Assembly: GCA_012840535.1 (NCBI GenBank)
Contig: DULF01000112.1
Coordinates: forward strand, 1-33,495
Source: Clostridiaceae bacterium
Lineage (GTDB): Bacteria > Bacillota > Clostridia > Acetivibrionales > DUMB01
Direction: 5' to 3'
DNA: 33,495 nucleotides
Part shown: positions 29,881-33,495 of the stretch, piece by piece
How positions within the stretch are numbered: position 1 is the stretch's first letter
How the letters are laid out: each line of letters starts with the position of its first letter
Translations under genes and position numbers: made by a program
The notes under the pieces: model-generated
What the model was told of the DNA's origin: nothing
The model's database searches: none
The model's input: only the letters and a program-made list of their open reading frames with translations

Positions 29881-29893
29881 TTTAAAAAAATAA

Positions 29894-29937
29894 TAATCCG
29901 AACATTTTTAAAATAACTTTTTAAAATGTTCGGATTT
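29894..29937. promoter_or_regulatory. Inverted pair of PurBox-like sites, also a terminator hairpin
   Basis: Box A (29894-29906, plus strand) is TAATCCGAACATT and box B (29925-29937, minus strand) is AAATCCGAACATT. The PurR consensus in Bacillus is AWWWCCGAACWWT; box B fits it fully and box A at all but one position. They are in inverted orientation with 18 bp between them, close to the 16-17 bp usual for PurR. The same arms make a 14-bp hairpin (29895-29908 with 29923-29936) followed by ATTATTTTTTT on the minus strand, so it can also end the upstream cupin operon. A third site, AAAGCCGAACATA, lies at 29769-29781. Confidence 0.6.
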
Positions 29938-29997
29938 TTAATAAATTTTCTATTTCAAGCAGTTATTTGCATGAAAAACAAAAACAGTTATTCTATT

Positions 29998-31485: not shown

Positions 31486-31830
31486 TTAGTCTATATATTC
31501 AGGACGAATCGGCGCAAATGATTCAACGAACTCGGTATCTTCAAGAGCAACTGAGCCGTGTAATTCCTCCGAATCAAAAGCATATCCACAGCCTGTTTCG
31601 GCTATAAAACTCTCTCCATCCTTGTTGATGAATTTGAGTCTGCCCTTTATTATGTATCCATTCTGAGCTGCCTTATGGCTATGAAGTGCAACTACAGTAT
31701 CCTTTTTCTGAACAAAGTGGCACAGCATTATCCGATCATTATATGCCAATGTCGTTCTGAATAGGCCCTTGACAGGCTCAACTGTTTTTCCCTCGCTCAA
31801 GTGTATGAAAGTACGCTTTCTGCTTTCCAA
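31486..31830 (-). CDS. Cupin-domain protein, KdgF-like, with IS-displaced upstream region
   Basis: A 114-residue cupin. Metal ligands are visible in VALHSHKAAQNGYIIKGRL (His-x-His, then the Gln/Gly strand) and in SEELHGSVALED; the ending EFVESFAPIRPEYID resembles KdgF-type pectin-degradation proteins, which linearise unsaturated uronates. I chose the TTG at 31830 because a perfect AGGAGGTGG lies 5 nt upstream. The open frame continues to an ATG at 31926, but its first 22 codons lie inside the IS left end and are not native. The IS has thus separated the operon from its original promoter. Confidence 0.75.
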   Translation of the reverse strand: MESRKRTFIHLSEGKTVEPVKGLFRTTLAYNDRIMLCHFVQKKDTVVALHSHKAAQNGYIIKGRLKFINKDGESFIAETGCGYAFDSEELHGSVALEDTEFVESFAPIRPEYID

Positions 31831-31859
31831 ATTTCCACCTCCTATATTATCAATGTGTC

Positions 31860-31873
31860 GGTGTTCAGCAAAG
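31860..31873 (+). repeat. Left terminal inverted repeat of the IS
   Basis: GGTGTTCAGCAAAG. With a one-base gap the similarity to the right end continues through TGAA. The adjacent sequence also forms GTTCAG/CTGAAC, a small internal palindrome at 31863-31879. Confidence 0.75.
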
Positions 31874-31979
31874 CTGAACCCGTTGATATTACTTGATTTA
31901 TAGTAACTGGAAACAAGTAACTTCACCTCCTAACCTCCAAACCTGCTAAAATAGAGATTTAGAAAGGGGATGAGGTCAT

Positions 31980-33305
31980 TTGTTACCATCAAATCAGAGT
32001 CATTTGGCTTATAAATTAAATCTTTTTCAGCATATCCGTCAAACTGACAGGATAGCCAAGATTATTTCTAAAATAGACCTTACGTGTGTCTATGACCTGT
32101 GTAAGCATTTTTATTCCACAAATCCATGGGGACGTATTGCACAATACAGACCCCAAGATGCTTTAAGGTCACTGCTTGTAATGTATCTTGCAGGCTTCAC
32201 TTCCATTAACAAGTGGGTAAGGGAACTTAAAGATACACCACGTTATGCATATTTATCCGGCTTTAACCCTGAAAAGACTCCTTCCAAAGCCTACTTTTCA
32301 TGGTTTACTTCAAACCTGTTTGGCAAGGATGCTGATATCGACGATATCATGACTCAGGGGACTCTGCTCAAAAAGATATTTGAAACTGCATTTGTCAATA
32401 AGTCTATAGAGTTAGGCATTATTGATCCTCATGACAAAGTTATTTTTGATGGCTGCAAAGCAAAGTCCTTTTGCAAACAGAAGTATAAACCGGATAAATC
32501 CTGCAGGTGCTCCAGCAACAGTATTAAGCCTTTTAAGTGTTCCATGTGTACAGATTCTGAGGCTACAAGGGGCTATGATTACAATTTGGATGAGTATTTA
32601 ATTGGCTATGGGCTCCATTTTGCTGTGACTCCATTGGTAGATAACCCCTCCAAGTGTTTGCCACTCACCTTCTTTATAGCAGGCGCTGACGTCCATGATT
32701 CTAAAATCTTTCCGCATCTCTTGATGTACTTATATCACGATATGAAAGTGGATTTTAACTATATCATCCTGGACTCGGGCTACGACGCATTTCATATTTA
32801 CTGGTGGATTAGACTTCTAGGTGGAAAACCTATTATTGCTATAAACCCAAGAAATTCTCTAACACCTACACCAGAGAATGAATATGGTCTGCCTGTGTGC
32901 CCTGCTGGTCATACGTACTATTACTGGGGAATTGATAGGAAAAAACGTAGGTACAAATGGCGATGCCCTTTAAAAGCATCTAAAAAGTTGGCTAAAAAGC
33001 TTAAATGTGATAGACCTTGTTGTGAATCCAGCTATGGCAAGACAGTCTACACTCACATTGAAGATGACATCCGCTGGTTTACACAAGTTCCTAGAGGATC
33101 ACAACTCTGGAAAGACCTATACTCAACAAGAGCACGTATCGAATCCGTCATAAGTGATACGGTACTCAATAACGGATTAAAGTCCCCGTTATTTCGGGGC
33201 ACTAAAAACTTCTTTGCGAGGACTGCCTTGGTATGCATGATCCAACATGCAAAAGCCATAGCTGAAACCCTTGAGAGTATAGAATACCAGAAAAATGCCG
33301 CATAA
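31980..33305 (+). CDS. DDE transposase (IS4/IS5-like superfamily)
   Basis: A 441-residue transposase. The N-terminal part (about 1-130) resembles a DUF772-type DNA-binding domain, including YRPQDALRSLLVMYLAGF. Catalytic acids are probably Asp157 (KVIFDGCK), Asp265 (YIILDSGYDA) and Glu388 in the YSTRARIESVISD signature (Y-x2-R-x3-E pattern). Two cysteine clusters (C165-C190 with CRC and CSMC; C307-C348 with CDRPCC) may be zinc-binding inserts. The start is a TTG at 31980 with GAGG 6-9 nt upstream; an ATG at 31970 is out of frame. The frame is unbroken, so the element may be active. Confidence 0.88.
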   Translation: MLPSNQSHLAYKLNLFQHIRQTDRIAKIISKIDLTCVYDLCKHFYSTNPWGRIAQYRPQDALRSLLVMYLAGFTSINKWVRELKDTPRYAYLSGFNPEKTPSKAYFSWFTSNLFGKDADIDDIMTQGTLLKKIFETAFVNKSIELGIIDPHDKVIFDGCKAKSFCKQKYKPDKSCRCSSNSIKPFKCSMCTDSEATRGYDYNLDEYLIGYGLHFAVTPLVDNPSKCLPLTFFIAGADVHDSKIFPHLLMYLYHDMKVDFNYIILDSGYDAFHIYWWIRLLGGKPIIAINPRNSLTPTPENEYGLPVCPAGHTYYYWGIDRKKRRYKWRCPLKASKKLAKKLKCDRPCCESSYGKTVYTHIEDDIRWFTQVPRGSQLWKDLYSTRARIESVISDTVLNNGLKSPLFRGTKNFFARTALVCMIQHAKAIAETLESIEYQKNAA

Positions 33306-33476
33306 TCTATAGGAAATTTAATCCTTATTCCAGTGATTAGCGATGCTTTGCCATTTCTTATTGGTAAACTCTTCCTATCAATCACACCTTCTTCAATTTT
33401 CAAGGACCAATCTTTATTCTGCCGTCATATTGCTAACTATTGTCACTTTATTGGTATTCATGTCCAATCTATTTCA
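33306..33476. other. Non-coding right part of the IS
   Basis: 171 bp between the transposase stop and the right terminal repeat. No gene, ribosome binding site or clear hairpin is visible; it is IS-internal non-coding sequence. Confidence 0.6.
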
Positions 33477-33490
33477 CTTTACTGAACACC
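33477..33490 (-). repeat. Right terminal inverted repeat of the IS
   Basis: CTTTACTGAACACC, the reverse complement of the left end except for one base. It lies five bases from the window edge, so the flank cannot be judged fully. Confidence 0.75.
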
Positions 33491-33495
33491 TACTA

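Follow-up and report, generated by a model that had tools for sequence, protein, structure and literature searches.

An insertion sequence (IS) of Clostridia, related to the IS1182 family and encoding a DDE transposase, very probably has a target specificity directed by Shine-Dalgarno sequences. In all 11 insertions for which both flanks were available, exactly 7 nt separate the right-end junction from a Shine-Dalgarno-type core downstream of it, and the left end points toward the gene in 11/11. One of these copies lies at the end of the window, by which we mean the whole stretch of DNA that was analyzed, 33,495 nucleotides from a Clostridiaceae bacterium that make up the entire contig C99 of a 240-contig assembly (Table 1).

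Table 1. Coordinates of the insertion sequence, its target site and the adjacent genes in the window
Feature	Position	Strand	Basis or remark
Insertion sequence, 1637 bp, left to right end	31857..33493	+	Terminal repeats; boundaries match 9-bp duplication and 10 other full copies
Left terminal inverted repeat, facing cupin gene	31857..31873	+	Repeat search
Right terminal inverted repeat	33477..33493	-	Repeat search
Transposase, 441 aa, TTG start	31980..33305	+	Pfam DUF772, DDE_Tnp_1, DDE_Tnp_1_6
GAGGTGA in IS left end, outward-reading	31923..31929	-	AGGTGAAG near-invariant across 11 left ends
Left copy of 9-bp target duplication	31848..31856		Right copy starts at 33494 and continues on contig C198
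Shine-Dalgarno AGGAGGTGG of cupin gene	31835..31843	-	Target core AGGTG at 31836-31840
Cupin gene from native TTG, 114 aa	31486..31830	-	Pfam Cupin_2
Longer open frame from GTG within IS, 146 aa, judged incidental	31486..31926	-	
Transaldolase-like gene, 351 aa	30408..31463	-	Pfam TAL_FSA
Second cupin gene, 131 aa	29998..30393	-	Pfam Cupin_2

The insertion in the window and the element

The initial annotation had recognized an IS upstream of a minus-strand row of cupin, transaldolase and cupin genes, which is borne out by the terminal repeats, whose arms are 88% complementary, and by a 9-bp duplication. Some of its positions needed adjustment: the left end is at 31857 rather than 31860, and the ribosome-binding site AGGAGGTGG spans 31835-31843 rather than 31836-31844. 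The TTG at 31830 was correctly named as start codon of the cupin gene and is separated from the IS end by 26 nt. The window ends 2 bp beyond the IS (33494-33495), as expected for a repeat that was not resolved by the assembly, and its last 126 bp match the terminal 126 bp of contig C198. Because the same nine bases, TATCAATGT, adjoin the left end at 31848-31856 and the right end on C198, contigs C99 and C198 most likely represent the opposite flanks of a single insertion; the window includes only the first 2 bp of the second copy of this 9-bp duplication. Contig C198 carries genes for the N- and C-terminal parts of a transketolase (tktN and tktC), both reading toward the IS, with 38 nt between the tktC stop codon and the element. 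With the 9-bp duplication common to both flanks and the tkt genes on the other side, the IS has split an operon at a gene boundary, in the order tktN-tktC-IS-cupin-transaldolase-cupin. The same direction of tktN and tktC on C198 agrees with the earlier proposal that the native promoter lies beyond the right end of the element. No IS-free copy of the tktC/cupin junction was found, and no close relative provided a true empty site.

The transaldolase was present in three of 60 relatives searched (G029, G015 and G022; 59-79% identity), and an exact-peptide scan of genome contigs for it gave no match. In G015, the gene order is tktN-tktC-(FadR-like)-transaldolase, the assignment of the third gene as FadR-like being our assumption. 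The position of the G015 transaldolase relative behind tktN-tktC suggests that the row belongs to a separate sugar pathway. The transaldolase of the window scored far under every curated NCBIfam cut-off and is flanked by two small cupins. Between the second cupin gene and a purE-like gene lies an inverted repeat (29891-29940, 23 nt, 91% complementary) that may be a terminator.

The transposase matched Pfam PF05598 (DUF772) and PF01609, and DUF772 plus DDE transposase domains are expected in the IS1182 family. With the NCBIfam IS1182 model NF033551 it scored 80.4 bits and three relative transposases scored 89.7, 93.3 and 95.2 bits, all under the cut-off of 270; by NCBIfam, the element thus classifies as a distant IS1182 relative. 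Residues D157, D265 and E388, invariant in five transposase sequences, were assigned by us as a putative DDE catalytic triad. The structure prediction for the transposase was too poor for use (mean pLDDT 37.1, pTM 0.28). The outward-reading stretch AGGTGAAG holds a fixed position in the left end and is near-invariant in sequence across 11 left ends. It may also be part of the transposase promoter.

Distribution of copies, relics and deletion derivatives

The initial annotation had allowed for the possibility that the repeat pair is absent from other copies of the IS, but it also bounds another 10 full copies, located in two further genomes. Eight copies, with a transposase of 80% identity, reside in the single-contig genome G230, two in G011 and one in G249; in the window's own genome, a second copy is represented on contig C51 by its left end alone. 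Insertions with both flanks, the window included, form the two-sided set of 11. When the left end was used as a DNA query against 391 genomes of the class, with no more than two candidates scored for each, matches were obtained in 20 of the 391, some of them short and not representing ends. Six of the 24 rows obtained were already in the set (C99, C51, G249:C156, two from G230 and L103), and L103 was counted as one with L084, which has the same flank. Locus L093 (36 nt) was counted; L095, L097 and L100 (matches of 28-35 nt) were read but kept outside the count, and L096, L098, L099, L101 and L102 were left out. Together with the loci found before, 25 left ends from 12 genomes were assembled, including a 107-bp relic on C218, deleted copies in G012 and G039 and a 36-nt relic in G388.

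The relics and deleted copies precede a response regulator (C218) and proteins that we take to be FliW-like in G388, WXG100-like in G039 and cyclase-like in G012. In G039 (L084 and L103, about 1414-1682), the IS is reduced to a MITE-like deletion derivative of 269 bp with both ends and 38 transposase codons, which occurs twice, each time before a WXG100-like gene, the two genes being similar but not identical. The C218 relic (L004 in G000, 1501-1610) lies between a uroporphyrinogen-decarboxylase-like gene and the response regulator gene; the stop codon of the upstream gene seems to be IS-derived, and the outward frame of the relic runs into the response regulator. Searches of viral contigs by protein, by alignment and by two left-end patterns revealed no copies, nor did searches of phages by protein or DNA, and plasmids gave no DNA match and a single protein of 25.9% identity. 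The transposase was found in 1/398 genomes of a phylum-wide sample, the window's own, and in 1/148 among the relatives of G230, namely G230 itself.

Target sites and controls

The core in the two-sided set is RGGTG in 10/11 insertions and AGGTTG in the remaining one. At the target, GGT is invariant, the consensus is GAGGTGA and the flanks are A+T-rich. The duplication comprises 9 bp in five insertions, 8 bp in four, 10 bp in one and 7 bp in one. Because its length varies from 7 to 10 bp, the distance of the left end from the core floats while that of the right end is fixed. In the larger collection, RGGTG was found 10-17 nt out from the left end in 23 of the 25 left ends from the 12 genomes, the two exceptions being a copy with AGGTTG at 15 nt and a relic in G013 without core. 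The three short matches read outside the count do not have the strict core, and their addition gives 23/28. The AGGTG pattern was picked after the first sites had been seen. RGGTG has a background frequency of 0.0013 per strand-base over 400 kb of the G230 genome; the chance of 10/11 at one offset is about 1e-26, a crude value that allows for 160 choices and assumes independence of the sites.

In the first site set, a start codon follows the core after 7-16 nt in 14/14 cases and opens a frame of at least 50 aa in 11/14, the remaining three having 34, 39 and 6 aa. None of the right flanks at 10 loci examined has a core within 45 nt. Pfam matches were obtained for eight of 10 downstream proteins scanned and were of unrelated kinds (ThiF, Schlafen/AlbA_2, transketolase N, carbohydrate-binding module, IrrE-like peptidase, HsdR and two response regulators); the other two had none. 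Since the right side of five of the 11 two-sided sites (C198, L018, L032, L033 and L039) has a same-direction open frame terminating within 40 nt, the element often lands between genes of the same direction. The G230 copy at L033 precedes a transketolase N-terminal gene and the window copy follows transketolase genes, perhaps the same pathway twice by chance. Two other readings of the conserved motif were discarded: AGGTGA is not a part of the IS, as it is located past the duplication and the sequence in between varies by site, and a target mimicking the right end (GTAGGTG) was dropped in view of the right end in G230, which is GTAGATG.

A cousin IS in G230 (L042-L055), IS1182-like and with a 419-aa transposase of 29% identity to that of the element, served as control. 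Its 14 near-identical copies have a core within 45 nt in only 2/28 flanks, and 12/14 show an A+T-rich duplication of 4 bp; in the same host genome, the cousin is not linked to ribosome-binding sites. Among the top 40 genomic sites of the motif, 16 have a start codon that opens an ORF of 50 aa or more, compared to 10% of random positions. As only 16/40 of these sites mark starts, reading of the motif alone is insufficient to explain the bias for gene starts; either intragenic insertions are removed by selection or recognition by the complex extends beyond the motif.

Origin of the target-site pattern

According to the explanation that we favor, the transposition complex would recognize a motif of the GAGGTG type; in these Clostridia, this motif is often the 3' part of a Shine-Dalgarno sequence. 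The complex would place the right end exactly 7 nt before the core and the left end another 7-10 nt upstream; this stagger would give rise to the duplication of 7-10 bp, and the left end would always point toward the gene start. Offset, stagger and orientation are a pattern observed over the copies. We infer direct reading of the motif by the transposase, perhaps via the conserved GAGGTGAAG of the left end; as AGGTGAAG is near-invariant in the left end, the simplest idea would be recognition of the same motif by the transposase both within the element and at the target. Selection against intragenic insertions probably adds to the bias for gene starts. Shine-Dalgarno sequence, start codon and coding sequence survive such an insertion, but the gene is severed from its promoter. 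Translation of the cupin most likely still relies on its own Shine-Dalgarno sequence and TTG, with transcripts entering from the tkt side.

Alternatively, the main effect could be a new chimeric cupin or an outward promoter selected at this locus, a view similar to that of the initial annotation. The latter had expected an ORF caller to start the cupin at an ATG at 31926 and to add 22 IS-encoded and about 10 leader-encoded residues. The codon at 31926 is GTG, and the caller product of 146 aa compared to 114 aa from the TTG does contain 32 extra codons, about 23 of which are in the IS and the remainder in duplication and leader. The frame from this GTG is open through the junction with a purine-rich sequence ahead, and in our reading the C218 relic is also in frame with its gene. 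However, in 8/8 G230 copies this outward frame is closed by a stop after seven codons, and because the length of the duplication ranges between 7 and 10 bp and shifts the frame at the junction, no reading frame could be kept there. When the chimeric 146-aa sequence was used as query against 60 relatives, left ends of the IS were the sole matches to its N-terminal part (at most residues 1-29), and the other three cupin matches (G023, G012 and G041) aligned from residues 45, 48 and 57 onward, indicating that cupin relatives lack the extension. A scan for sigma-70-like promoters yielded four hits versus 6.2 ± 2.8 in shuffled sequences, which is not above chance, and 0/4 were on the outward strand of the left end; the outward IS promoter suggested before is thus not supported. 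The native Shine-Dalgarno sequence and TTG of the cupin gene are intact, and landing beside a Shine-Dalgarno sequence is the rule for this element. Selection of a chimera or promoter is thus very unlikely as the main effect, and the chimeric N-terminus is judged to be incidental, an accident of an open frame.

Even less probable is RNA-guided targeting, in which a structured left-end transcript or the tail of the 16S rRNA would guide the complex by pairing with the Shine-Dalgarno sequence. Compared with shuffled sequences, the window's left-end RNA forms a better fold (z -4.3), but palindromes in the end give folds as DNA too, and the 11 left ends showed no covariation (term +0.42; two-sided change in 2/25 pairs). 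All 12 sites tested pair with the anti-Shine-Dalgarno tail at -9.3 to -19.3 kcal/mol, but this is not independent evidence because any Shine-Dalgarno sequence does so, and the transposase has ordinary DDE domains. Least credible of all is survivorship, with free insertion into A+T-rich DNA and persistence only of gene-sparing copies in 5' leaders: the A+T-rich site flanks and the selection expected against insertions within genes fit it, but it is refuted as sole cause by the fixed offset, since an exact 7-nt distance in 11/11 with a single orientation is beyond the reach of selection, the cousin IS under the same selection in the same genome lacks such an offset, and the crude chance estimate, if the sites are independent, is vanishingly small.

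Target choice by Shine-Dalgarno recognition may have a wider meaning, which we put forward tentatively: in this clade of Clostridia IS, the translation-initiation signal could be a landing pad, used with nucleotide precision and in fixed orientation, and decayed left ends could become new 5' leaders, so that the element would act as a mobile gene-start module. Yeast Ty elements near tRNA genes are elements that survive by least-harm landing. Another example is TnGBS at bacterial promoters (PMC3942029). If our reading is true, an IS fixed to the Shine-Dalgarno sequence would represent a different least-harm solution in which the coding sequence is spared, and the motif, being short, generic and located before many genes, would offer many safe sites to the element. 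It would also account for operons interrupted neatly at gene boundaries and for spurious N-terminal extensions in annotations. The way in which a transposase reads a ribosome-binding site in DNA would then become a question accessible to testing.

Comparison with known systems

No IS with target specificity for Shine-Dalgarno sequences was found in the literature searched, a scope to which ISfinder and most subscription papers did not belong, and the specificity is apparently undescribed there, within a known kind of element. The accessible part of a paper on Amoebophilus IS mentions Shine-Dalgarno sequences in passing only (PMC3196728). IS1272 takes the place of inverted repeats without producing a duplication (PMC5678879), unlike the element described here with its duplications of 7-10 bp in 11/11 insertions. 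With the IS1182 family the element shares the closest named transposase model, NF033551, at a score far under the curated cut-off, and terminal inverted repeats. The cousin IS in G230 has a related transposase and the same host but differs in its 4-bp duplication and the missing link to ribosome-binding sites. The IS110/IS1111 elements are small IS with site-specific insertion that use a bridge or seek RNA. For the present element, one left-end RNA folds well, no covariation was found among 11 left ends, and the Pfam domains are of DDE type. A close parallel in behavior is provided by TnGBS and the ISLre2 and ISKra4 groups (Mutator-like, p-MULT 3 and 4), which are likewise DDE transposons found at a fixed short distance from a generic expression signal (PMC3942029). 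The transposase described here matches DUF772 and DDE_Tnp_1 and no Mutator-type model in Pfam and NCBIfam, which sets it apart from the p-MULT group. Insertion of TnGBS and related IS takes place 15-17 nt upstream of the -35 element of sigma-A promoters, mostly in one orientation and with one end always beside the signal (PMC3942029). The element described here behaves similarly, with 11/11 insertions at 7 nt and the left end geneward. The signal itself differs: it is the sigma-A promoter for TnGBS and p-MULT elements (PMC3942029) and the Shine-Dalgarno sequence for the present element, whose fixed partner is RGGTG with a start codon after it.
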